36,864 bases of DNA from Bacteroidota bacterium. GTDB taxonomy: Bacteria; Bacteroidota; Bacteroidia; Bacteroidales; VadinHA17. The stretch is taken from positions 1 to 36,864 of the forward strand of contig JAKQPD010000099.1 in NCBI GenBank assembly GCA_029564935.1. Direction: 5' to 3'. Both the position numbers and the translations under genes were made by a program. This document shows positions 18,777 to 32,656 of the stretch, piece by piece (within the stretch, counting starts at the first letter, position 1; each line of letters begins with the position of its first letter). The notes beneath the pieces were generated by a model. The model ran no database searches and was not told where the DNA came from. It saw only the letters and a program-made list of their open reading frames with translations.

Positions 18777-18820
18777 TAAAGAATACTTTAATATTAATAA
18801 ACCAAAAACAGAAGTTGACT

Positions 18821-19666
18821 ATGAAATCACGTCGTCAGTTTTTAAAATTGTCGGGAGCAGGTCTTCTGGCAGCAGGTATTGCTCCGGTTTATATACCGGC
18901 GTCTGTCCCGATGCCGCCAAAGAAATTCACCTCAAAGGACGCCTTTGAGGTTGGAATGGCTGGCTTTACCTTCGCCCAGCTCAATCTGGATAAAATGATA
19001 GAAATAATGAAAAGGGTGGGAGTTACCAATCTTTCGCTCAAGGAAATGCATCTTCCTCTTAACAGCACCCATGAGAAAATTGAAGAAACTATCGGCAAAC
19101 TGAAAAGCGCAGGCATAAATGTTTATACGGTGGGGGTTATTTATATGAGAACCAAAGAATCGGTTGACCAGGCTTTCGAATATGCCAAAATGGCCGGGGT
19201 CAAAATGATTGTCGGAGCTCCAAATACCGAACTGCTGCCTTATGTTGAGCAGAAAATAAAGGAATACGATTTCAGACTGGCAATTCATAACCATGGTCCG
19301 GATAATCCCCTTTATCCGAATGCAACAGATATATGGAACCATATTAAAGACCTGGACCCGCGGATAGGGATATGTATAGACATAGGTCATACAACCCGTG
19401 ACGGACAGAATCCCTCTGTCGATATCCTGAAATACAAGGACAGGATCTATGATATTCATATAAAGGATGTGGATAAGCCTTCAAAGGAAGGTAAAACCCT
19501 GGAAATGGGAAGGGGAGTTATTGATATACCGGGCTTTGTGGCAACTCTCAGAAAAATAAAATATTCAGGCAAATGCAGCCTTGAATTCGAAAAAGATATG
19601 AAAGATCCTGCTGCAGGTATTGCCGAATCAATAGGATATTTCAAAGGTGTGATGGCCTGCAGGTAG
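18821..19666 (+). CDS. Tat-exported sugar phosphate isomerase/epimerase-like TIM-barrel protein
   Basis: A 281-residue protein with a clear twin-arginine signal (MKSRRQFLKLSGAGLLAAG) and then an AP-endonuclease-2/xylose-isomerase-like TIM barrel. Barrel-end motifs that usually hold the divalent metal and substrate are present: MHLPLN, VGAPN, IHNHGP, ICIDIGHT, IHIKDV and the final LEFEKD. Bacteroidota carry many such exported paralogues next to carbohydrate genes, annotated as sugar isomerases or epimerases without known substrate. It starts 44 bases after the LtaS-like gene, and a palindromic AT-rich repeat follows. ATG 18821 is preferred over a TTG two codons upstream because it starts the Tat signal directly. 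A second family member is at 22342-23217. Confidence 0.85.
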   Translation: MKSRRQFLKLSGAGLLAAGIAPVYIPASVPMPPKKFTSKDAFEVGMAGFTFAQLNLDKMIEIMKRVGVTNLSLKEMHLPLNSTHEKIEETIGKLKSAGINVYTVGVIYMRTKESVDQAFEYAKMAGVKMIVGAPNTELLPYVEQKIKEYDFRLAIHNHGPDNPLYPNATDIWNHIKDLDPRIGICIDIGHTTRDGQNPSVDILKYKDRIYDIHIKDVDKPSKEGKTLEMGRGVIDIPGFVATLRKIKYSGKCSLEFEKDMKDPAAGIAESIGYFKGVMACR

Positions 19667-22341: not shown

Positions 22342-23217
22342 TTAATATTGTAGATTCTGAATGAACTGTGCACTATCTTTGAACGTCGCAGGATCCATTT
22401 CAACAAAGATGTTCTTTACTCCGCCCTTACCTGTTGCCTCAAAGAATTCTTTCCAGTCAACAATTCCTTTGCCGAGTGGAACACTCTTCTGGTCGAGTAC
22501 CGAATAATCAGCCAGGTGTGCAGAAATGAACCTTCCCGGATATTTGTAAAAATAATCCGCTGCTTTAATACCTATATTTATAACTGCAACCTGGAACTGC
22601 ATTTTCACAAGCTCGGGATCGAACTGTTTCAGAAGAGCATCATAAATAAGGACACCATCTATTTTTTCAAATTCACCGTGATGATTATGAAATCCGGTCT
22701 GGATACCGGCTTTTTTTGTTCTTTCTCCTATTTTATTCAATTCATCAGCAGCTTTCATCCAGTCATTCATAGTGGCATTCTTCGGCAGACCGAAGCTTGA
22801 CAGGATCATCTGCTTCTGTCCCGATTCTGAAGCAAATTGTATCCGTTCATCCAGGTTGTTCCTGAGCTCATTCATGCCATAATGGGTGCTTTCAAACTGC
22901 AGACCAAGGTCATTCATTATTTTGCGCATCTCTTTTCCCGTCATTTTCATGAGCGGACCGAATCCTGAACTTTCATATCCGGGAGGGGAACACATCTCAA
23001 CACTCTTATACCCCATGTCGGCCATCATCTTAAGAGTTCCGGCAAAATCCTTAATAAGCTGGTCCTTTATTGTCCAGACCTGGAAACCAAGAGGATACCT
23101 GACAGATTTTGGTAGTGAACGGGCATGAAGACCGGTGGGAATATGCGAAGCCACAACAGCTGAGCCTATCCCAAGAGCGCTTCTGCCTATAAACTGTCGT
23201 CGTGTTATCTTTTTCAT
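22342..23217 (-). CDS. Tat-exported sugar phosphate isomerase/epimerase-like TIM-barrel protein
   Basis: A 291-residue protein with a twin-arginine signal (KKITRRQFIGRSALGIG) and an AP-endonuclease-2-like barrel. The mature part begins YPLGFQVWTIKD, followed by MADMGYKSVEMCSPPGY, FESTHYGMNEL, TGFHNHHGEFEKIDG (a usual metal/substrate segment), ISAHLADYS and FVEMDPATF. The segment around residues 215-230 reads FQVAVINIGI, where homologues often have D-x-x-W-x-x-x-G; I see no obvious acidic ligand there, so the metal site may be altered. The substrate is unknown. It diverges from the amidohydrolase genes at 23555, with a 337-base gap holding a palindromic repeat. Confidence 0.82.
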   Translation of the reverse strand: MKKITRRQFIGRSALGIGSAVVASHIPTGLHARSLPKSVRYPLGFQVWTIKDQLIKDFAGTLKMMADMGYKSVEMCSPPGYESSGFGPLMKMTGKEMRKIMNDLGLQFESTHYGMNELRNNLDERIQFASESGQKQMILSSFGLPKNATMNDWMKAADELNKIGERTKKAGIQTGFHNHHGEFEKIDGVLIYDALLKQFDPELVKMQFQVAVINIGIKAADYFYKYPGRFISAHLADYSVLDQKSVPLGKGIVDWKEFFEATGKGGVKNIFVEMDPATFKDSAQFIQNLQY

Positions 23218-23554: not shown

Positions 23555-24844
23555 ATGAAAAAATGCTGTTCATCATTCTTAAGGATAGTTCTGTCGCTTC
23601 AGGCTTTATTGTGTTTTCAGGGTACGATTCCGTCTTATGGACAAGCCATTGATATTCTCCTGAAGGGAGGGCATGTTATCGATCCCGCATCCAATATTGA
23701 TGCTCCTATGGATGTAGCCATAGTTAAGGATAAGATATTCCGGGTAGCTCCCGATATTCCTGCTGAAAATTCAGCAAAGGTCATAGATGTAAGGGGAATG
23801 TATGTTACTCCCGGGCTCATTGACATGCATGTGCATGCTTTCCACGGCACTGATATGGGATCATATATTACCGATGGCTGGGATGCACTTCCTCCTGACG
23901 GATTTACATTCCGTGCAGGGGTTACAACTGTTGTCGATGCCGGATCAGCCGGTTGGCGGAATTTCAGGAAATTCAAGGAACAGACAATTGACCGGTCGCA
24001 AACAAGAATACTTGCGTTTCTTAATATTGTTGGATCGGGGATGTACGGGAGGTTTGAGGAGCAGGATGTTAATGATATGAATCCGGTGATGGTGGCCTAC
24101 ATGATCAACAGATTGTTTCCGGGTATTATTGTTGGTGTCAAGTCGGCACATTACTGGGGGCCGGATTTTACACAGGTCGATCGTGCAGTCGAAGCAGGCA
24201 GGCTGGCAAATGTTCCTGTAATGGTTGATCTCGGGGAACATCATCCACCATTGCCTATTGAGGAACTTTTTATGAAACACCTCAGGCCGGGAGATATCTG
24301 GACACACACTTATGCAAATGCACCACAGGATCGTGAGGTTCCGGTGGACGAAAATGGTAAGGTGAAGCCTTTCATTTTTGAAGCACAGAAACGAGGGATA
24401 ATTTTCGATGTCGGCCACGGAGGCGGAGCCTTTCACTGGAAACAGGCTATTCCCTCGGTACAGCAGGGATTTATTGCTGATGTGATAAGCTCCGATCTGC
24501 ATACCGGCAGCATGAACAGCGGAATGAAAGATATGGCTAATCTTCTGTCTAAATTCCTGAATATGGGTCTTCCGCTTCAGGATGTAATTAAACGTGCCAC
24601 TCTGAACCCTGCAAAAGCTATCAAAAGGACTGACCTGGGAACCCTTGGTGAAGGATCAGTAGCTGATATAGCAGTTTTCAGCCTCCGGGAGGGCAGTTTC
24701 GGTTTCCTCGATGTCCGCGGAACAAAAATGCAGGGCACTCAGAAACTTGAAGCTGAACTTACAATCCGCTCGGGAAAAATTGTATGGGACCTCAACGGAA
24801 TCGGATCTCCGGCCTGGGATGCCATGCCTTCAGCTTCAAAGTGA
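23555..24844 (+). CDS. exported amidohydrolase A (EF_0837-type amidohydrolase/deacetylase family)
   Basis: A 429-residue protein with a Sec signal peptide (hydrophobic to about residue 22, cleavage near SYGQA) and an amidohydrolase barrel. Visible active-site elements are His92 and His94 (IDMHVHAFHG), Lys196 (VGVKSAHYW, the usual carboxylated bridging lysine), His251 (WTHTYAN), His287 (FDVGHGGG) and Asp313 (SSDLHTGSM). At the strand-5 position where dihydroorotase-like enzymes have a metal His the sequence reads VMVDLGEHH. Members of this family are predicted hydrolases of N-acyl or cyclic amide compounds and often neighbour SelA/DgaE-like PLP enzymes, as here. It is the first of three paralogues in the window and starts a plus-strand set with 24898, 26229 and perhaps 27920. 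The substrate is unknown. Confidence 0.87.
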   Translation: MKKCCSSFLRIVLSLQALLCFQGTIPSYGQAIDILLKGGHVIDPASNIDAPMDVAIVKDKIFRVAPDIPAENSAKVIDVRGMYVTPGLIDMHVHAFHGTDMGSYITDGWDALPPDGFTFRAGVTTVVDAGSAGWRNFRKFKEQTIDRSQTRILAFLNIVGSGMYGRFEEQDVNDMNPVMVAYMINRLFPGIIVGVKSAHYWGPDFTQVDRAVEAGRLANVPVMVDLGEHHPPLPIEELFMKHLRPGDIWTHTYANAPQDREVPVDENGKVKPFIFEAQKRGIIFDVGHGGGAFHWKQAIPSVQQGFIADVISSDLHTGSMNSGMKDMANLLSKFLNMGLPLQDVIKRATLNPAKAIKRTDLGTLGEGSVADIAVFSLREGSFGFLDVRGTKMQGTQKLEAELTIRSGKIVWDLNGIGSPAWDAMPSASK

Positions 24845-24897
24845 AGGTTACTTTTACACAGGTTACAGAAATTAAAATTCAGGAAGCAATTTTTATC

Positions 24898-26190
24898 ATG
24901 TCAGAACCAGCGGTAAAAAGGACAATGAAAAGTAATACCCCTGCTTATTTCAGGAAAGCTGTTCCCGCTTTTTTATTCATTTTCTGTTTAATCTTACCAG
25001 CCCTTTCCCAGCAGGCAGATATCCTTCTTAAAGGCGGTCATGTGATTGATCCGAAGAATGGTATTGATTCACAGATGGATATCGAAATAGCCGGAGGAAA
25101 AATAATCAGGGTGGCTCCGGATATAAGTTCACAGGATGCAAAAAGAACTGTTGATGTGAAAGGTCTGTATGTTACTCCGGGCCTCATAGATATTCATACA
25201 CATGTGTTTGTAGGATCCGGTCAGGGCTTTGCTGACGGATTTTCAAGCGTTTCACCGGATGACTTTACATTTAAGGCAGGCATTACCACCGTTGCAGATG
25301 CAGGTACCTCGGGATGGAGGAATTTCCCGGTTTTCAGGAAACAGGTTATTGACAGATCACAGACAAGGGTCCTTGCATTTCTGAATATTGCGGGAAATGG
25401 TATGACCGGTTTCCCTTCAGAAGAGGATATTAATGACATGGATACACGGATGACTTCTCTTGTAGCAGAGCAATACCCCGATATAATAGTCGGCATAAAG
25501 ATCGGTCATTACAGGGGAAATGAATGGACGCCGTTTGACAGAGCTTCTGAAGCAGCACTTATTGCCGGAGTTCCTCTGCTTGTCGAATGCCACCTTCCCT
25601 TCCTTCCTCTTGAAGAAATACTTAAAAGGATGAGACCGGGAGATATATATACTCATTCATTTTGTGTGGCTTCCGACCGTGAATGCCTGCTTGACGAAAA
25701 GGGGAAAATCAAGCCTTTTGTAGCCGAAGCAAAGAAGAGAGGAGTCCGGTTTGATGTGGGTCACGGAGGAGGGATGTTCCATTTCGATGTGGCAATACCT
25801 GCATTGAAACAGGGACTGATCCCTGATTCCTTCGGATCGGATCTTCACCGTTCCAGCATGAATTCGGGAATGAAGAATATGCTCGATATAATGTCGAAAT
25901 ACTTTAATATGGGTATGACTTTTGAGGATATAATCTTCAGGGCTACCTGGAATCCGGCACAATCGCTCAGGCGGGATGATCTCGGACATTTAAGTGAAGG
26001 ATCTGTAGCTGACATTGCTGTTTTCAGCATAAGAAAAGGTACCTTTGGATTCGTTGATACAGGTGGTACCAGGCTGAACGGGGACCGCAGGATAGAAACG
26101 GAGCTTACAATCCGCGGAGGGAAGATAGTTTATGATCAGAATGGCATTTCCGCGACAGGCAGGATTGACAGTCAGGGAAACAGATTTTGA
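24898..26190 (+). CDS. exported amidohydrolase B (EF_0837-type amidohydrolase/deacetylase family)
   Basis: A paralogue of the preceding gene, about 430 residues, beginning 53 bases after it. The signal peptide core is AVPAFLFIFCLILPALSQ with the mature protein starting near QADILLKGGHVIDP. Active-site elements are His100 and His102 (IDIHTHVFVG), Lys201 (VGIKIGHYR), a His in YTHSFCV, DVGHGGGMFH and GSDLHRSSM. The strand-5 segment differs from A and C: LLVECHLPF with Glu and Cys-His, where A and C have Asp, hinting at different substrate or metal tuning. Two starts are possible, ATG 24898 or ATG 24925; the second gives a more standard signal-peptide length. The frame stays open into gene A, but that overlap has no family similarity. 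PLP enzyme 1 follows 38 bases later. Confidence 0.86.
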   Translation: MSEPAVKRTMKSNTPAYFRKAVPAFLFIFCLILPALSQQADILLKGGHVIDPKNGIDSQMDIEIAGGKIIRVAPDISSQDAKRTVDVKGLYVTPGLIDIHTHVFVGSGQGFADGFSSVSPDDFTFKAGITTVADAGTSGWRNFPVFRKQVIDRSQTRVLAFLNIAGNGMTGFPSEEDINDMDTRMTSLVAEQYPDIIVGIKIGHYRGNEWTPFDRASEAALIAGVPLLVECHLPFLPLEEILKRMRPGDIYTHSFCVASDRECLLDEKGKIKPFVAEAKKRGVRFDVGHGGGMFHFDVAIPALKQGLIPDSFGSDLHRSSMNSGMKNMLDIMSKYFNMGMTFEDIIFRATWNPAQSLRRDDLGHLSEGSVADIAVFSIRKGTFGFVDTGGTRLNGDRRIETELTIRGGKIVYDQNGISATGRIDSQGNRF

Positions 26191-26228
26191 AGAAATGGAA
26201 CAGATATTTTAACTAAAGAACAAGAAGT

Positions 26229-27836
26229 ATGGAACGAAGAGACATAATCAGGAGTCTGACAATTCTGCCATTTGCCGGAGGCTTTCGCCCAATTGAGTCA
26301 ATATTATCTCCGGTTACAGGTCCTCTGGAACCGGGCCAGAATATTTACCAGTCGATAGGAGTGGAACCGGTCATAAACTGTGTTGGCACATACACAATTA
26401 TTGGCGGTTCCATTGAAAGGCCTGAAGTTGTTGAAGCCATGCATGCCGCATCGGGCTTCTTTGTTCAGTATGATGAGCTGGCCCTCGGCATCGGAAGGAG
26501 GCTCGCGGAGCTGACTAAAGCAGAGTGGGGGATGATCTCATCGGGTTGTGCCGCCGGGATGAAACATGTTACTTCCGCCTGCATCGCAGGTGGCAATCCC
26601 GAGAAACTTGTACGTATCCCTGATCTTACAGGTTTTGACAAGACCGAGGTTGTAATTCCCAGAAGCTCAAGAAATGCCTATGATCATTCAATCAGGAACA
26701 TCGGAGTTACAATTATTACTGTTGATACACTCGAAGAGCTTGGGAAGGCCCTGAATGCGAGGACAGCAATGATATACGTTATGACCGGTCGTGATACTCT
26801 TCCGGGTAATAAGTTCGCAATAGATAAGATTGCCGCGCTTGCAAAACCATTGAACATACCATTTCTTGTTGATGCAGCCGCCGAAGATCTTACAATACCT
26901 AATGTTCATCTCCAGGCAGGGGCAACGGTGGTGGCTTACAGCGGAGGTAAGGCAATTTGCGGGCCTCAGTGTGCCGGACTGCTTCTCGGACAGAAGGACA
27001 TATTGATGTCGGCATGGCAGGCCAGCTCCCCGCATCACGGCACCGGACGCGACAATAAGGTCGGAAAAGAAGAAATGCTTGGAATGCTGGCGGCAGTCGA
27101 AGCCTGGGTCAAACGTGATCATGAGGCGAAATACAGGACATGGCTGGGATATCTTGATGTAATATCAAAACGTGTTTCAGCTGTAAGCGGAGTTACAGTA
27201 ACCCTGGGGGAGCCTGCTGACCTTAATAACCGGAGCCCATGGTTAATTATTTCATGGGATCCTGCAAGGCTTAATGTTGCAGGGCCTGAAATAGCTGAAA
27301 TGCTTGCACAAACACAACCCAGGATTGCTGTTCACAGCGGGAGTAATGAACAGGACAAAACAACTTTTCTAAGGGTAACATCCGGGCAGATGCAACCGGG
27401 AAATGATAAGATCGTTGCTGACAGAATTTTCGAACTGCTGTCGAAGAAATACCCTGAACCCAAAGAAATGACTGCACCCTCAGGAGATATTTCAGGAAGA
27501 TGGACTGTCGATATCCAGTTTTACAGCAGCAAGAGCCAGCATACTTTTATTCTTGAACAGGATGGCAACTGGATACAGGGATCACATAAAGGCGATTTTT
27601 CATTCCGTGAAATGGTCGGTACAATCGAGGGTGACCAGGTGAAACTGAGCAGCTCAGAAAGAATGATAGCCGATAATGTGCCCTTCATATTCTCGGGAAC
27701 CCTCTCGGGAGATACAATTACCGGCCAGATCTATATGGGGGAATATATAAATGCCAGTTTTACGGCAAACCGCAATAACTACAGGGGAACAAGAAGACAG
27801 ATAAGATTTCCCAAAGGTCAGCCGCTTGCGACCTGA
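26229..27836 (+). CDS. Tat-exported SelA/DgaE-like PLP enzyme 1 with fused C-terminal beta domain
   Basis: A 535-residue protein. The N-terminus MERRDIIRSLTILPFAGG has a twin-arginine pair and a short hydrophobic stretch. Residues 45-410 form a fold I PLP enzyme of the SelA-like/D-glucosaminate-6-phosphate ammonia-lyase group: VINCVGTYTIIGGSI, Asp215 in FLVDAAAED (pyridine-nitrogen partner) and Lys241 in VAYSGGKAICGPQCAG (Schiff-base lysine). Residues about 418-515 are an extra domain (ISGRWTVDIQF ... FILEQDGNWIQGSHKG ... SGTLSGDTITGQI) that looks like a lipocalin-like beta-sheet barrel; it is absent from PLP enzyme 2. Known relatives eliminate ammonia from aminosugar acids in the cytoplasm; a Tat-exported version is unusual. 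It lies 38 bases after amidohydrolase B. Function by analogy only. Confidence 0.82.
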   Translation: MERRDIIRSLTILPFAGGFRPIESILSPVTGPLEPGQNIYQSIGVEPVINCVGTYTIIGGSIERPEVVEAMHAASGFFVQYDELALGIGRRLAELTKAEWGMISSGCAAGMKHVTSACIAGGNPEKLVRIPDLTGFDKTEVVIPRSSRNAYDHSIRNIGVTIITVDTLEELGKALNARTAMIYVMTGRDTLPGNKFAIDKIAALAKPLNIPFLVDAAAEDLTIPNVHLQAGATVVAYSGGKAICGPQCAGLLLGQKDILMSAWQASSPHHGTGRDNKVGKEEMLGMLAAVEAWVKRDHEAKYRTWLGYLDVISKRVSAVSGVTVTLGEPADLNNRSPWLIISWDPARLNVAGPEIAEMLAQTQPRIAVHSGSNEQDKTTFLRVTSGQMQPGNDKIVADRIFELLSKKYPEPKEMTAPSGDISGRWTVDIQFYSSKSQHTFILEQDGNWIQGSHKGDFSFREMVGTIEGDQVKLSSSERMIADNVPFIFSGTLSGDTITGQIYMGEYINASFTANRNNYRGTRRQIRFPKGQPLAT

Positions 27837-27919
27837 TATATGATTAATTGTAAACCTTATTGTCATTTAGATGTTTAATAGCAGGATTAATTAGTTTAAA
27901 AAACAATAGAAGAATATAA

Positions 27920-29521
27920 ATGAAAAGACGTGATTTTATAAGAGTCTCTTCTGCAGCAGGAGTTATGGGACTTATTAATCCGGTATATGGTACCGGTTCA
28001 ATGAGCGGGATGGTGGATGATCAGGGTTTTGATCTGCATCCTTTTATAAAGGAACACCCCGAAGCTGTTTTCATTAATCTGACATCGGTCTCTGCTCCCA
28101 ATGACAAACAGGCCATACATGATGCTGCGTTCAGGCTTGCAGGAGAAATAATGGTGAGAACTAGTGGGGGGGAAGGTTTTCCGTTATCAACGAGGATCAC
28201 CTGTAAGCCCAACTGGACATGTACCGGGAGGATCGATCCGAAAAATCCTGATTCTCAACTTGGAATTACTACAGATGTTAATTTTATCGAAGGTTTCCTG
28301 AAGGCTGTAAAAAATCTGGGCCCGGAGAAATTCTATCTCAGGGAATGCGCCTGTCCGCATCAGTGGAATGCAGCAGGATATACTGCCATGGCCGAGAGAA
28401 ATGGGTTTGACCTCCGGGATCTTAGCTCAAAAGACTTCTGGGATCTTGCTGAAGGTGATATAATATTCCGGAAGGTTGACGGAGTTGTCTTTAAGGAAGT
28501 CGGTTTTATGGCTCCAATGACTGCCCAGGATACCTTCCTTATTAATATTGCCAAGCTCAAATCCCACCAGATGGGAATTACGGGTGCTATAAAGAACCTT
28601 CAGGGCATGACAGGAAGGAAATTTCATCAGTTCTGCGGAGGACATTACGATATTTTCAAGACCTATGACGAGCGTTATCATAAGTTCTTCCAGCCCGATT
28701 ATATGGATAAGATAGCGGAGCTTCAGAAAAAGCACGAAGAACAGGGAATTCCCAGGTGGAGGAGCAGGCAGGAGAGGCCTCCCTATGGTGGCGGAATGTT
28801 CATGGAACAGTGGGTACAGAGGATGATCGATGCTTACAGTGTTGCTCCGACCGGGATAAATATTGTAGAGGGTATTTATGGCCGCGACGGCGATGGTTTT
28901 TCCGGAGGTCCCCATAACGGCAAAGCCATGAATTATATGAGCAATAATATTATTTTCGGGAAAGATGCATTCAGGGTGGATATAATTGCTCACTGGCTTG
29001 CCGGTCACGAACCCGGAAATTTCGGACTATTCCATATCGGTATCGAACGTGGTGTTTCCAATGTGCTTAATCCCTTCGATATTCCTGTGTACCTCTGGGA
29101 AGACGGAAAGGCAAAGAAAGTAAGCCTTGATACTCTGAAGCGGACACCTCTTCTCACTCTGTATATGAGAAGGAATTATGACGGTCAGAATGAAGATCAG
29201 TACCACATGGTTGATGAACCGTTTGATTACTCTGCCTGGGAAACAGGTAAGATAACATCAGACCTGCAACCGTCAATCAAAGCCCTGGGTGCCGATAATA
29301 ATAACGGCATCGTCATGGAAGTGAATGTTCCTGAAGAGAGCGATGTATATGTCGATATAAAGAACCGTCACGGTGATGTCGTCTGGCGGCTCAGAGCCGA
29401 CGGGTTCGAACCGGGGAAACACGAGGTGGTATGGGACGGTTTCTCACAGCCCGGCATGTACACAATGTACGTGAAAGGCATGGGATGGGATGCCGAACGC
29501 GAAATGGTTATTTATACCTGA
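27920..29521 (+). CDS. Tat-exported DUF362 protein with FlgD/Ig-like C-terminus
   Basis: A 533-residue protein with a twin-arginine signal (MKRRDFIRVSSAAGVMGL). The central part is DUF362-like: VFINLTSV at the start, TRITCKPNWTC, LRECACPHQWNAAGY, INIAKLKSHQMGITGAIKNL and NIIFGKDAFRVDIIAHW. Many DUF362 proteins carry ferredoxin-type Cys clusters; I see only scattered cysteines here and no C-x2-C-x2-C pattern. The last 90 residues (VMEVNVPEESDVYVDI ... EPGKHEVVWDGFSQPGMYTMYV) match the FlgD-type Ig-like fold common at the C-termini of secreted Bacteroidota proteins. It starts 83 bases after PLP enzyme 1 and its last 10 bases overlap the end of the converging PLP enzyme 2 gene. Function unknown; its presence among the amidohydrolase/PLP genes suggests a shared pathway. 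Confidence 0.82.
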   Translation: MKRRDFIRVSSAAGVMGLINPVYGTGSMSGMVDDQGFDLHPFIKEHPEAVFINLTSVSAPNDKQAIHDAAFRLAGEIMVRTSGGEGFPLSTRITCKPNWTCTGRIDPKNPDSQLGITTDVNFIEGFLKAVKNLGPEKFYLRECACPHQWNAAGYTAMAERNGFDLRDLSSKDFWDLAEGDIIFRKVDGVVFKEVGFMAPMTAQDTFLINIAKLKSHQMGITGAIKNLQGMTGRKFHQFCGGHYDIFKTYDERYHKFFQPDYMDKIAELQKKHEEQGIPRWRSRQERPPYGGGMFMEQWVQRMIDAYSVAPTGINIVEGIYGRDGDGFSGGPHNGKAMNYMSNNIIFGKDAFRVDIIAHWLAGHEPGNFGLFHIGIERGVSNVLNPFDIPVYLWEDGKAKKVSLDTLKRTPLLTLYMRRNYDGQNEDQYHMVDEPFDYSAWETGKITSDLQPSIKALGADNNNGIVMEVNVPEESDVYVDIKNRHGDVVWRLRADGFEPGKHEVVWDGFSQPGMYTMYVKGMGWDAEREMVIYT

Positions 29522-30720
29522 GCCTTCGTCAGCTCTTCATAAATACGGGCAGCAACTATCCTTTCCTGCTTCGGTTCCAGCATGAACACAGTAATGTTTA
29601 TGCTGTTTTCCGCACCTGCTACAACTTCTATGGAAGGATTACCCCTGCGTAATCTTTCCTGGAATTCCTGACGGGTAACCTTTATCCTGTTAATATCCCA
29701 CGAAATATTCAGTGTGGGTGTATGATTAGCAACAGGAGGAACAGATACTGTTGTTGTGACTCCATTCACCTTTTTCACAGCATTTTCGATCAGTGCGATC
29801 CGGTCTTCCCAGATCTTCCATTCCTTTTCATGATCAATCCTGATATATCTGTCGATAGCTGCATACATTCCGAAGACCTCCTCTTTATTGACTTTCATCC
29901 CGCGTCCGATATTACCTCCGCGGGGAGGAGCATTCAGCCGTGCCGCTTCTATAAGATCCTTTCTTCCCATAAGTATACCTGCGCTCTGCGGACCGCGCAA
30001 TGCCTTGCCTCCTGATATGCATACAAGATCGAATCCCATATCGTTGTATTTCCAGAGGTTTTCAACCGGCGGTACATCGGCGGCTATATCTATCATTACC
30101 GGGATATTATGCTTTTTGCCAAGCGCTACGAATTCCTCGTGCTGGATCTTCCCGGATGGAGCGGCATAGTTCAGGAACCAGAGCATTGCCGTCTTTTCAT
30201 TTATGGCATCCTCAAGTTCCCCTGCTGTCTCAACCGGCACTATTCTTACGCCTGTGTTTTTAAGGGCATGGACATAACCAGTATTATGGCTGTTCTGTGT
30301 TATCACCTCCGATTTCATGTTACTGACATCGGGGAGTTGTCCGATCTTATTTTGATCTTTTCCTGTCAGGACTCCTGCGGTACCCAGGACCATAGCCGAC
30401 CAGCATCCTGCTGTAACAGTTGCCGCTTCAGCATGACAGATCGCGGCTATCTTTTCTCCAACCTTGTCCTGTACATCATCAAGCAGTACATATTCTTTGG
30501 AAGAGGCAACCATTGCTTCAACAACCTCTTCCGGAAGAAGTGAAGCTGTCATAAATGTATAAGTGCCAGCTGCATTGATGAACCTGCGCAGTCCCAGTTC
30601 GGCGAAAAGATCACGTTTTACAGGAGCAGCAACAAAGGGGCTCAATGGAAGAGACGCGCTCAGCGCCGCTCCTGCAACCGGCAGAACAGTCAGTCCTTTT
30701 ATGACCTCTCTGCGTTTCAT
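29512..30720 (-). CDS. Tat-exported SelA/DgaE-like PLP enzyme 2
   Basis: A 402-residue protein with a twin-arginine signal (MKRREVIKGLTVLPVAGAAL) and an Ala-rich hydrophobic region, then a complete fold I PLP enzyme: FINAAGTYTFMTASLLPEEV, Asp211 in VMIDIAADVP and the Schiff-base Lys239 in CISGGKALRGPQSAG. It lacks the C-terminal beta domain of PLP enzyme 1 and has the ordinary family length. True SelA (selenocysteinyl-tRNA synthase) is cytoplasmic and tRNA-binding, so the signal peptide argues against that role; ammonia-lyase-like chemistry is the better analogy. It follows the RidA gene by 14 bases on the same strand and converges on the DUF362 gene with a 10-base overlap. Confidence 0.84.
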   Translation of the reverse strand: MKRREVIKGLTVLPVAGAALSASLPLSPFVAAPVKRDLFAELGLRRFINAAGTYTFMTASLLPEEVVEAMVASSKEYVLLDDVQDKVGEKIAAICHAEAATVTAGCWSAMVLGTAGVLTGKDQNKIGQLPDVSNMKSEVITQNSHNTGYVHALKNTGVRIVPVETAGELEDAINEKTAMLWFLNYAAPSGKIQHEEFVALGKKHNIPVMIDIAADVPPVENLWKYNDMGFDLVCISGGKALRGPQSAGILMGRKDLIEAARLNAPPRGGNIGRGMKVNKEEVFGMYAAIDRYIRIDHEKEWKIWEDRIALIENAVKKVNGVTTTVSVPPVANHTPTLNISWDINRIKVTRQEFQERLRRGNPSIEVVAGAENSINITVFMLEPKQERIVAARIYEELTKAQV

Positions 30721-30734
30721 TTATTATTCCGGTA

Positions 30735-31199
30735 TTAAATATAAGCTATACAATCCATTTCGACGAGGGAATTTCCGGGAACTCCGCCCTTAGCTACGGC
30801 AACAGTTGTACGGACAGGAGGCTTGCTACCGAAGCGCCCCTTGTAAACTTCATTCATACCCTGAAAATCTGCAATATCATTAAGATATACATTTACCTTC
30901 AGGACTTTCTCCATTGAGGAACCTGCTTTAATGAGCTCGTTCTCAAGTTCTTTAAGGACTATTTCAGTATGAGCCTTGATTGTAAAAGGTTCTACATGGG
31001 CACCTTTTCCTGCAACAAATACAAGATTCCCGAATTTGGTATGGCCCGAGAATAGCGGAGCATTCTGGAAGCTTGTAATGCTGTCAGCTTCTTTTTCCTC
31101 CCTTGATGCAACAGCTGCTTTTGCAGCTACTCCTGCCCCGGCTATACCAAGCACAGATGCGAACATTTTCTTTAAAGCAGATCTTCTTTCAGTTTTCAT
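30735..31199 (-). CDS. Tat-signal RidA-family enamine/imine deaminase
   Basis: A 154-residue protein in which residues 1-35 are a twin-arginine-type signal (KTERRSALKKMFASVLGIAG, then GAGVAAKAAVA) placed before a normal-length RidA domain of about 115 residues. The domain shows LVFVAGKGA, KVLKVNVYLNDIADFQGMN and the substrate-carboxylate Arg130 in PPVRTTVAVA, with Glu147 near the end. The canonical GPYSQA segment near the N-terminus is replaced by FSGHTKF, so the active-site Tyr of classical RidA is absent. RidA proteins hydrolyse reactive enamines and imines released by PLP enzymes; this one is directly upstream of PLP enzyme 2 (14 bases) and both would be exported. Fairly sure of the family, less sure of the export and activity. 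Confidence 0.83.
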   Translation of the reverse strand: MKTERRSALKKMFASVLGIAGAGVAAKAAVASREEKEADSITSFQNAPLFSGHTKFGNLVFVAGKGAHVEPFTIKAHTEIVLKELENELIKAGSSMEKVLKVNVYLNDIADFQGMNEVYKGRFGSKPPVRTTVAVAKGGVPGNSLVEMDCIAYI

Positions 31200-31236
31200 A
31201 ATAATTCTATTTAAGTTAATATTAATTTAATTTTTG

Positions 31237-31364
31237 CCACTAAGTGTACATCTTAAAGAACTCAGGAACATCAACTACAATAACTCCTGCCCTTCTTGCC
31301 ACCCCTTGCCCCCAGGGGGGCGCTCAGATTCATAAGTCCCCCTTGGGGGATTTAGGGGTGAGTT
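31237..31364. repeat. dispersed intergenic repeat, copy 2 (uninterrupted)
   Basis: The same element as 20937-21091 but without the 30-base palindrome insertion. It has inverted ends AACTCA (31259-31264) and TGAGTT (31359-31364) and an internal CCCCCTTGGGGG palindrome. An extra CACTAAGT word occurs at 31238 and again at 31383. It lies between amidohydrolase C and RidA, where it may separate what was one operon. Confidence 0.83.
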
Positions 31365-31405
31365 ATATAGTAGATACTTAGGCACTAAGTAATACAAAAT
31401 AATAA

Positions 31406-32656
31406 TTATCTCCTGCCGGATACAATGACAGGATTTGCAATTCCATTGAGGTCATAAACGATCCTTCCGGCTCTGATTGTCATTTCACATTCGAACTTCC
31501 TGTCGGTTTCCAGTTTATAACCGGTATGATCAAACAGGCCGAATTTGCCCTGTCTGAGGTTCAGCACCGTGATGTCGGCATCAGCGCCAACGGACAGATT
31601 TCCTAGTTCTTCTCTTTTGATCACCCGGGCAGGTTCGGATGTGGTTGCTTTGATCACGCTTTGAAGATCCATTCCCATAGCCAGGAATTTTGACATTGTT
31701 GTGAGAAGGTCCTTCATTGCTGCATTCATACTGCCGATATGCAGATCAGTGCTTATCACGTGAGGGAATAAACCGCTCTTTACAGCCGGTATTCCCTGGG
31801 AATAAGCAAAGCTGATACCTCCATAGCCGACATCGAAGATAATACCTCTTTTAATGGCGTCCCACACGAAAGGTTTCACTTTGCCTGCAGCCGGATCAAC
31901 AACATATTCCCTGCCGCTTCCCAGCTGGGCAAAACAATGCGTGAATATATCCCCCGGGCGAAGATGTTTCATGAAAAGTTCTTCAATCGAAAGAGGCGGA
32001 TCAGCCCCTCCAAAATCTATCATTACCGGCATATCGGCAACTTTACCGGCTTCAACGGTACGGTCAGTCGGTTCCCATTCATGTCCGCTATAGTGAGCCA
32101 GCTTAATCCCCACTATCTCATTGCGGTTCTTCAGCGCATACTGCCCGGTGATCTTAGGATCCATATCCTTCAGATTCTGTTCAAAAGGCCCACCTCTCAT
32201 TCCTTCACCGACAATATTAAGGAAGGCCAGTACACGAGTCTGGGATCTGTCAATTATATTTTTTTTGAAATCAGGAAATGTTCTCCATCCTGCACATCCA
32301 GCGTCAACAACGGTTGTAACGCCAACCCTGAATGTAAAACCATCGGGTGTGACTGAATTTGGGCCGTTCATATATTGCTGGTCGAGGTTAGTTCCCTGAT
32401 AAACATGTACATGCATGTCAATAAGTCCGGGGGTCACATAGAATCCGCCTGCATTTACTACCTGAATACCTTCCCTGGCATCAATGTTTTTGGATAACAA
32501 GGCTATCTTGCCGTCTTTAACGGCTATGTCCATTACTTCATTGATATTGTTCTTCGGATCTATAACATGACCGCCCTTGAGGATTATGTTATATTTCTGA
32601 GCGATTACCGGATTTATCATTATCAGAAAGATTGCGAGCAGGAGCTTAATTTTCAT
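31406..32656 (-). CDS. exported amidohydrolase C (EF_0837-type), with altered active-site loop
   Basis: A 416-residue protein, third paralogue of the family, with a short Sec signal (LLLAIFLIMINPVIAQ). His82 and His84 (IDMHVHVYQG), the Lys in VGIKLAHYSG, the His in FTHCFAQ and STDLHIGSM are conserved. The strand-7 motif reads FDVGYGGISFAY where A and B have FDVGHGGG followed by FH, so a conserved His is Tyr here and the nearby His is lost too. The strand-5 position is Asp in VMIDFGGADPP. The enzyme may have a changed substrate or be weakly active. It starts 21 bases after the hflC stop on the same strand, and the RidA-PLP2 pair lies downstream beyond the repeat element. Confidence 0.86.
   Translation of the reverse strand: MKIKLLLAIFLIMINPVIAQKYNIILKGGHVIDPKNNINEVMDIAVKDGKIALLSKNIDAREGIQVVNAGGFYVTPGLIDMHVHVYQGTNLDQQYMNGPNSVTPDGFTFRVGVTTVVDAGCAGWRTFPDFKKNIIDRSQTRVLAFLNIVGEGMRGGPFEQNLKDMDPKITGQYALKNRNEIVGIKLAHYSGHEWEPTDRTVEAGKVADMPVMIDFGGADPPLSIEELFMKHLRPGDIFTHCFAQLGSGREYVVDPAAGKVKPFVWDAIKRGIIFDVGYGGISFAYSQGIPAVKSGLFPHVISTDLHIGSMNAAMKDLLTTMSKFLAMGMDLQSVIKATTSEPARVIKREELGNLSVGADADITVLNLRQGKFGLFDHTGYKLETDRKFECEMTIRAGRIVYDLNGIANPVIVSGRR

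Follow-up and report, generated by a model that had tools for sequence, protein, structure and literature searches.

An amidohydrolase, SelA/DgaE-like enzyme and RidA gene cluster with export-type N termini in a Bacteroidales bacterium: a candidate extracytoplasmic module

Introduction

Catabolism dependent on pyridoxal 5'-phosphate (PLP) and the detoxification of enamines are usually placed in the cytoplasm. This study concerns a gene cluster of a Bacteroidota bacterium (Bacteroidales, VadinHA17; assembly GCA_029564935.1), in which three amidohydrolases, two PLP enzymes (here PLPa and PLPb) and a RidA-family protein all begin with export-type N termini. The cluster lies at positions 23555–32656 of contig JAKQPD010000099.1, of which the whole stretch analysed, 36,864 nucleotides, is called the window. 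Its closest functional analogue is the ong pathway of Pseudoalteromonas prydzensis, which is not the same system. This pathway (OngB, OngC, OngD) deacetylates N-acetylglucosaminate and deaminates glucosaminate to 2-keto-3-deoxygluconate, and a RidA-family gene of the cluster, left without an assigned role, is essential (PMC9537276). The two would share the deacetylation of an N-acetyl-aminoaldonate and PLP-dependent deamination without phosphorylation, with a RidA-family gene in the cluster. However, OngB and OngC are predicted to be cytoplasmic, OngB being nearest to D-aminoacylases and OngC a fold-type III PLP enzyme, whereas the amidohydrolases of the window are COG3964-type, its PLP enzymes are SelA/DgaE-like (fold-type I), and both have export-type starts. 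Membership of the ong pathway was ruled out, since the model of PLPb fits DGL, Cap15 and SelA, and amidohydrolase 3 fits structure 2ogj over D-aminoacylase. The cluster resembles ong in its logic and differs in its enzymes and, probably, in lying on the opposite side of the membrane.

Among solved structures, the best match of PLPb by both sequence and fold is DgaE/DGL, with which it shares the Schiff-base lysine; in Priestia, the DgaE gene stands between amidohydrolase and aldolase genes. DgaE/DGL differs in that its substrate is phosphorylated after uptake by the phosphotransferase system, that His162-His163 and the phosphate arginines are present, and that the Priestia homolog is leaderless. 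In DGL, His-163 protonates the enamine and so prevents its release, the H163A variant is active and releases the enamine, and the authors raise RidA in this connection (PMC9529869). The same paper names the lysine Lys-217, although its other residue numbers agree with a chain that has this lysine at position 213. Cap15 (8t7j) is an oxygen-dependent monooxygenase-decarboxylase acting on a beta-hydroxy amino acid, and PvdN of Pseudomonas is a periplasmic, oxygen-using PLP enzyme, a precedent for periplasmic PLP chemistry (PMC7497351). Cap15 belongs to the same fold family as PLPb, with a fold score near that of DGL; it differs in serving Streptomyces antibiotic biosynthesis, in depending on oxygen and in grouping with DGL on the tree. 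PvdN is alike as a periplasmic PLP enzyme and differs in its task, siderophore maturation with oxygen. PvdN is exported by twin-arginine translocation (Tat), and we know of no amidohydrolase or RidA partner for it. In a literature search that covered few subscription journals and was judged by its listings, neither an exported RidA nor this gene set was described.

We propose, with a probability of about 0.55, that the cluster encodes an extracytoplasmic deacylation–deamination module, that is, a deacylase, PLP ammonia-lyase and RidA route that may have been relocated to the periplasm.

Results

The genome is assembled in 441 contigs (completeness 95.07, contamination 5.04), of which the window is C191. 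Seven genes were found in the list of open reading frames (ORFs) as two converging sets that overlap by 10 bases (29512–29521). The plus-strand set (23555–29521) comprises amidohydrolase 1, amidohydrolase 2, PLPa and a DUF362 protein, with 38 bases between amidohydrolase 2 and PLPa; the minus-strand set (32656–29512) comprises amidohydrolase 3, RidA and PLPb, with 206 bases between the first two and 14 between the last two. The initial annotation had described Sec-type amidohydrolases with twin-arginine (RR) PLP enzymes, RidA and DUF362 within 9 kb, and the ORFs, profiles and N termini bear this out. The features are as follows.

23555..24844, plus strand: amidohydrolase 1 (NF006689, COG3964-type), Sec-like start; from ORF, profile match and N terminus
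24898..26190, plus strand: amidohydrolase 2, Sec-like start; the listed ORF opens at 24784; from profile match and N terminus
26229..27836, plus strand: PLPa, SelA/DgaE-like PLP enzyme with K241, RR start by the looser rule only, C-terminal all-beta stretch
27920..29521, plus strand: DUF362 protein, Tat-type start, sub-threshold FlgD_ig match near the C terminus
29512..30720, minus strand: PLPb, SelA/DgaE-like PLP enzyme with K239, RR start; from ORF, profile and structure model
30735..31199, minus strand: RidA-family protein (PF01042), RR start, R130 kept
31406..32656, minus strand: amidohydrolase 3, Sec-like start; strand and order (amidohydrolase 3, RidA, PLPb) as in relatives
22342..23217, minus strand: AP_endonuc_2 TIM-barrel protein, Tat-type start; divergent neighbor of uncertain membership in the module

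All three amidohydrolases passed NF006689 (436.4, 423.2 and 446.4 bits; cut-off 371). They failed TIGR03583/EF_0837 (220.2, 230.7 and 216.1; cut-off 432.15), which rules out EF_0837 proper. These are all the amidohydrolases of this type in the genome, a fourth match being weak. The start of amidohydrolase 2 is probably the in-frame ATG at 24898 or 24925 rather than that at 24784, which overlaps amidohydrolase 1. For amidohydrolase 3, the one searched against solved structures, the best match was 2ogj (E 1.7e-47), with D-aminoacylase 1rjp at 4.1e-4. We take 2ogj to be Atu3266, which reportedly prefers (R)-acyl compounds and whose first substrate found is said to be N-acetyl-D-serine. The window amidohydrolases have in common with 2ogj the HxH, Lys, strand-6 His and Asp that presumably belong to its metal centre; among the aligned relatives, HxH, the strand-6 His and Asp were kept in 101/101 and Lys in 100/101.

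The 'DgaE family' model TIGR01437 (cut-off 385.3) was matched below its cut-off by PLPa (142.8) and PLPb (174.8); these scores and the missing DgaE residues rule out DGL/DgaE proper. The Schiff-base lysine, described earlier as intact at Lys241 of PLPa and Lys239 of PLPb, is indeed K in all 132 aligned relatives. The His-His pair corresponding to His162-His163 occurs in 0/132 of these signal-bearing enzymes (any His in the loop, 14/132), and the DGL phosphate arginines Arg301, Arg332 and Arg346 are never all present together (0/132). Taken singly, R is found at 301 in 1/107 PLPb and 7/25 PLPa, at 332 in 5 and 3, and at 346 in 0 and 0. By sequence, the solved structures nearest to PLPb were DGL 7lc0 (E 5.9e-33, 117.7 bits) and then 8t7j (1.3e-21, 80.3 bits). 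Foldseek on the PLPb model (mean pLDDT 87.9; residues 8–33 below 50) placed DGL 7lc0/7lce first (TM 0.86 by target length, E 5.1e-28), with Cap15 8t7j beside it (E 5.8e-27). Fold matches of PLPa were not used because its model is poor (pLDDT 62.9). The last ~100 residues of PLPa (about 27483–27779) were predicted to be all-beta in this otherwise poor model; a Pfam scan of the stretch gave no family and one sub-threshold match, and solved structures gave no good match (best E 0.27). A search of 41 related genomes located the stretch at 12 places in PLPa-like genes; two short ORFs carry it as well (23–25% identity). In one of these (L178, E 1.2e-4) it stands alone behind a Sec-type start, which lends weak support to an exported setting. 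A third PLPa-like gene of the same genome lies alone on contig C62 (L142, 9461–11146), with an RR start and the same C-terminal stretch.

The window RidA passed PF01042 (70.3; cut-off 27.3) and failed TIGR00004, the Rid detoxifying hydrolase model (67.5; cut-off 106.25). The Rid arginine, R130, which we take to be the substrate-binding residue, was kept in 51/51 sequences and is also present in 2dyy. Besides the window RidA, the genome holds one other PF01042 protein, of 125 residues and encoded on contig C121; it is leaderless and begins directly with the domain. In many relatives (L007–L016, L047, L052 and others) a second, Sec-type YjgF/RidA-like protein adjoins the PLP gene, and in some loci it is present without a Tat-type RidA.

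N termini were counted in 101 loci, namely 80 found by patterns (among the matches listed) and 21 of the 27 loci L085–L111 from the 41 related genomes, the six weak-match loci L090–L095 being left out. The ORF start was the first ATG, GTG or TTG; open-ended ORFs were left out, which reduced the PLP enzymes from 143 to 136, the amidohydrolases from 109 to 103, YjgF from 38 to 37 and DUF362 from 15 to 10. Because some genomes are in both sets, a small number of proteins enter the counts more than once, and relatives are counted as independent. The 80-locus set favors RR starts because the search patterns include the N-terminal MKRREVIK; the searches of the 41 genomes and of a 395-genome phylum sample did not use this pattern. 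A strict TatP-type rule was applied alongside a looser rule.

An RRxx-hydrophobic start was read in 132/136 PLP enzymes and 49/51 RidA proteins, followed by a hydrophobic stretch in 130 and 46. The loose rule was satisfied by 132/136 and 48/51, and the strict rule by 83 and 29. The background was 48/794 by the loose rule (42 by the strict rule) for the other genes of the same loci, further Tat-type families included, and 0/181 for internal segments. Of the four PLP exceptions, three are repeat sightings of a single protein with a start that reads N, and the fourth is an ORF that lacks its beginning; both RidA exceptions are remote, leaderless members of that family. RR is invariant in 13 PLPa and 20 PLPb alignment rows, and many of the columns that follow vary. 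Sec-like starts were found in 99/103 amidohydrolases (RR in 2), 36/37 YjgF, 13/13 RraA, 11/11 GGT, 26/29 SMP-30 and 37/43 GSDH-cytochrome c proteins, and the M81 peptidases showed neither type (0/12). Five window proteins satisfied the strict rule, namely PLPb, RidA, DUF362 and a pair of TIM-barrel proteins; the N termini of the amidohydrolases are hydrophobic and lack RR. The curated model TIGR01409 (cut-off 16.7) passed for DUF362 (17.4) and the TIM-barrel protein at 22342–23217 (22.4) only. Thus, the twin-arginine starts of the initial annotation stand by the strict rule for PLPb, RidA and DUF362, whereas PLPa (RRDII) satisfies the loose rule only and neither PLP enzyme nor RidA is recognized by TIGR01409. 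The expected co-occurrence of the three families in Bacteroidota, with Sec- or Tat-type starts, was found in the counts above and the linkage below. Relatives that keep the cluster and lose the extension were not seen: among the loci of the 41 genomes (one G009 place left out), no readable PLP start lacked RR. A TatC gene is present in the genome.

Strong PLPb matches were found in 6 of the 41 related genomes (own genome included), and only weak ones in 6 more. In the phylum sample, 8/395 genomes (again with the own genome) had strong full-length matches (E <1e-30), and the best locus of each, the one that was read, starts with RR (8/8). The 109 directons with a PLP gene contained amidohydrolase in 77, RidA in 39, GSDH-cytochrome c in 39, YjgF in 33, CBM9 in 29 and SBF in 21; rarer partners were SusD-like (16), SusC-like (14), SMP-30 (14), M81 (12), RraA (11), GGT (11) and DUF362 (10) proteins. 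These family names rest on one Pfam-scanned representative each, and the SusC, SusD, FecR and sigma labels are our presumption. The 69 loci of at least 8 kb in the pattern-found set were dereplicated at 75% identity to 32, of which 25 contain an amidohydrolase, 25 a RidA or YjgF and 24 both, in accordance with the earlier suggestion that the three families belong together; GSDH is present in 16, SBF in 14, SMP-30 in 13 and RraA in 8. In the 32 loci, 42/42 amidohydrolases and 19/20 RidA proteins lie in the directon of the PLP gene. Within-locus linkage was strong for amidohydrolase (P = 8e-11) and RidA (4e-4) and modest for CBM9 and the Tat-type family c20 (0.009) and for YjgF and GSDH (0.03); the test is conservative because all loci are centred on the PLP gene.

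PLPb relatives were also found beyond Bacteroidota, with 237 plasmid records matching at E<=1e-15. A plasmid of Granulicella tundricola (Acidobacteriota), the only acidobacterial locus seen, carries RraA, PLPb-like, RidA, PLPa-like, amidohydrolase and lactonase genes in a row. Both PLP enzymes, RidA and the lactonase have RR starts, and the RraA and amidohydrolase have hydrophobic starts. The PLPb match begins at query residue 34–43 in 99/100 rows, among the matches listed (overlapping lists). A late match start alone is no proof of a missing signal, because Granulicella, with its own leader, is included. Eight other translated plasmid PLP proteins start at or near the domain; the PLP ORF of Sinorhizobium meliloti has a short lead, which need not be the true start, and the ORFs around it resemble, by eye, an ABC importer and an amidohydrolase. 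Gene neighbors were read from records with a gene table, which two further regions lack. Signal-less sets of ABC importer, amidohydrolase, RidA and PLP enzyme occur in Sagittula and Aminobacter (2/6 alphaproteobacterial loci with gene tables), and ABC, RidA and PLP genes in two Rhizobium records and Thalassospira. Mesorhizobium has M81, dipeptide epimerase, PLP and ABC genes. In Priestia, amidohydrolase, DgaE, KDGP aldolase, sugar kinase and gluconate symporter genes stand together. In Haladaptatus, no amidohydrolase or RidA was found in the 13 kb inspected.

In trees drawn with a midpoint root for display, the signal-bearing rows all fall on one side of one branch (41 vs 9 rows, SH-aLRT 99); here all Bacteroidota and Granulicella rows were labelled 'exported', including L081, whose own start is missing. 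A second tree separated signal-bearing rows from the rest with support 100/99 (23 vs 10 rows). The two Granulicella PLP enzymes group with PLPa and PLPb, respectively, the PLPb-like one on a long branch. Because of this grouping, the PLPa/PLPb split seems older than the spread of the set between the two phyla, by descent or transfer.

The DUF362 protein passed PF04015 (68.9; cut-off 24). In the window's genus a Tat-type DUF362 adjoins PLPa, and it is present twice in relatives L143 and L146. Two AP_endonuc_2 TIM-barrel proteins, at 22342–23217 and 18815–19666, have clear Tat-type starts, and a gene resembling the former occupies the corresponding position in L006 and L070. A recurrent Tat-type family, cluster c20 (~450 residues; RR in 17/19), stands beside M81 and GGT in PLP directons (L031, L042, L047). 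Another contig of the genome, C189 (L164), carries SusC-like, SusD-like, Sec-type RraA-related, Tat-type and presumably epimerase-like proteins, with an SBF transporter on the opposite strand. Promoter and terminator scans were near the shuffled level.

Discussion

From the conserved residues, the export-type starts, the recurrent linkage and the single signal-bearing clade, we infer the location, reaction and substrate of the module. The Sec-exported COG3964-type amidohydrolases would take the acyl group off an N-acyl (R)/D-amino-acid-like compound. The SelA/DgaE-like enzymes, prefolded, PLP-loaded and exported by Tat, would catalyze alpha,beta-elimination of the freed amino acid and release an enamine/imine. 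The co-exported RidA, or elsewhere the Sec-type YjgF-like protein, would act in the same compartment and hydrolyze this reactive product, yielding a keto acid and ammonia. The absence of the DGL phosphate arginines and of His-163 suggests a non-phosphorylated substrate, a released enamine and RidA as its quencher, a chemistry that is plausible. RidA is not tied to the loss of the histidine alone, because a rhizobial operon whose signal-less homolog keeps SHH also has a RidA gene. Relocation to the periplasm appears well supported by comparative evidence, and not by curated Tat models. The initial annotation held that the same chemistry had been moved outside the cytoplasm. The relationship to signal-less units (Priestia, Sagittula, Aminobacter) stands; the identity of the chemistry is uncertain, because the DgaE phosphate arginines and His162-His163 are not kept and the Cap15 relative is oxygen-dependent.

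GSDH/cytochrome c, SMP-30 lactonase, RraA-type aldolase and SBF partners are found in part of the relatives, and the substrate class is therefore likely a 2-amino-2-deoxy-aldonate such as N-acetylglucosaminate. A wider scheme, which is tentative and rather doubtful as a whole, would place an entire non-phosphorylative pathway for amino sugar acids beyond the inner membrane in Bacteroidota and Acidobacteriota, with only deaminated products entering the cell. An exported dehydrogenase and lactonase would make the N-acyl-aminoaldonate, which the COG3964-type amidohydrolases would deacylate; Tat-exported PLP ammonia-lyases without the proton donor of DGL would release the enamine, a dedicated exported RidA would quench it, and the keto acid might then be cleaved by an RraA-type aldolase, likewise exported.

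Several observations weigh against these proposals. PLPb scores 14.7 with TIGR01409, below the cut-off, and PLPa and RidA gave no match to this model; nor, for 20 PLPb relatives, does it figure among the best 25 of the 30 families with matches at E<=0.01, although one of these relatives matches another Tat model, TIGR02811. P14 is invariant, as RR is, in the A2 and A3 N-terminal alignments, and a role of this stretch other than export is conceivable because it conserves more than RR. The hydrophobic stretch of PLPa, called the weakest of the exported set, scores 1.47 (DUF362 1.36 on the same scale), and a RidA relative in L107 (the same gene as L146 760–1188) has RR with no hydrophobic stretch. 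In the amidohydrolases, the strand-5 metal-ligand His of 2ogj is replaced by Asp in 91/101 and by Glu in 10/101, so that the full 2ogj-type centre is not present and the metal centre is possibly altered. At the position of R226, the carboxylate arginine of DGL, the 132 PLP enzymes have K (67), R (56) or another residue (9). The signal-less side of the tree holds DGL and Cap15 as one group, and the reaction therefore cannot be predicted from either. The distribution of the module is patchy: strong PLPb matches were present in 5 of 24 other genomes of the genus, and the remaining 19 had none or a weak one. Within-locus linkage was not significant for SBF (0.083), RraA (0.1), M81 (0.13) and SMP-30 (0.34). 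Relatives rather than the window are the source of the wider sugar-acid scheme, because in the own genome a GSDH-cytochrome c search, run without a positive control, gave no match, the SMP-30 relatives are distant (27–30% identity only), and the three RraA relatives with Sec-type starts all lie on other contigs.

The alternative that survives best, a possible though not an expected one, keeps the location and chemistry and takes as substrate an N-acyl-D-amino acid or a D-amino-acid peptide of the peptidoglycan or gamma-glutamyl type. It is favored by the M81 metallopeptidase and GGT genes in 12/109 and 11/109 PLP directons, by M81 and dipeptide epimerase genes beside the PLP gene in Mesorhizobium, by the ABC importers that adjoin signal-less relatives, one ATP-binding protein being annotated for peptide transport, and by N-acetyl-D-serine, reportedly the first substrate found for Atu3266. 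However, some of the loci have GSDH, SMP-30, RraA, CBM9 and SusC/D-like partners, which point to sugar acids, as does the aldolase, sugar kinase and gluconate symporter context in Priestia.

The main mechanistic alternative, an unlikely one, is that the module is exported but its PLP enzymes carry out an oxygen-dependent monooxygenation-decarboxylation to an amide, as in Cap15, which periplasmic PvdN resembles. The close Foldseek scores of Cap15 and DGL for PLPb would suit such a reaction, as would the missing DGL proton-donor histidine, the beta-hydroxy amino acid substrate of Cap15 and the oxygen use of periplasmic PvdN (PMC7497351). In sequence, however, DGL outscores 8t7j by the bit scores given above, and Cap15 groups with DGL outside the signal-bearing clade. 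Amide formation would also yield no enamine, leaving the recurrent RidA/YjgF partner unexplained.

Still less probable is that the N-terminal extensions do not export, and that the PLP enzymes and RidA are cytoplasmic or anchored in the membrane facing the cytoplasm. The failures with TIGR01409, the conserved P14 and the short hydrophobic stretch of PLPa would fit this. Against it stand the RR that is invariant amid varying columns, the Granulicella N termini, which are dissimilar yet have RR, the clear Sec-type starts of the partners, the low-confidence N terminus of the PLPb model and the separate leaderless RidA in the genome. Exported enzymes are common in such genomes, but the scarcely credible reading that unrelated ones are neighbors by chance was rejected on the directon counts, the within-locus linkage tests and the dereplicated loci (24/32), together with the occurrence in a second phylum and the signal-less triads elsewhere.

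In sum, if the proposed extracytoplasmic deacylation–deamination module is real, various bacteria would carry out PLP-dependent catabolism and enamine detoxification in their periplasm. The exported COG3964-type amidohydrolases, the SelA-like 'class-V aminotransferases' and the exported RidA/YjgF proteins would then have a joint function. Because an exported RidA can serve only an exported enamine source, the module would offer a natural test of the purpose of RidA. Nitrogen would be removed from the substrate before uptake.

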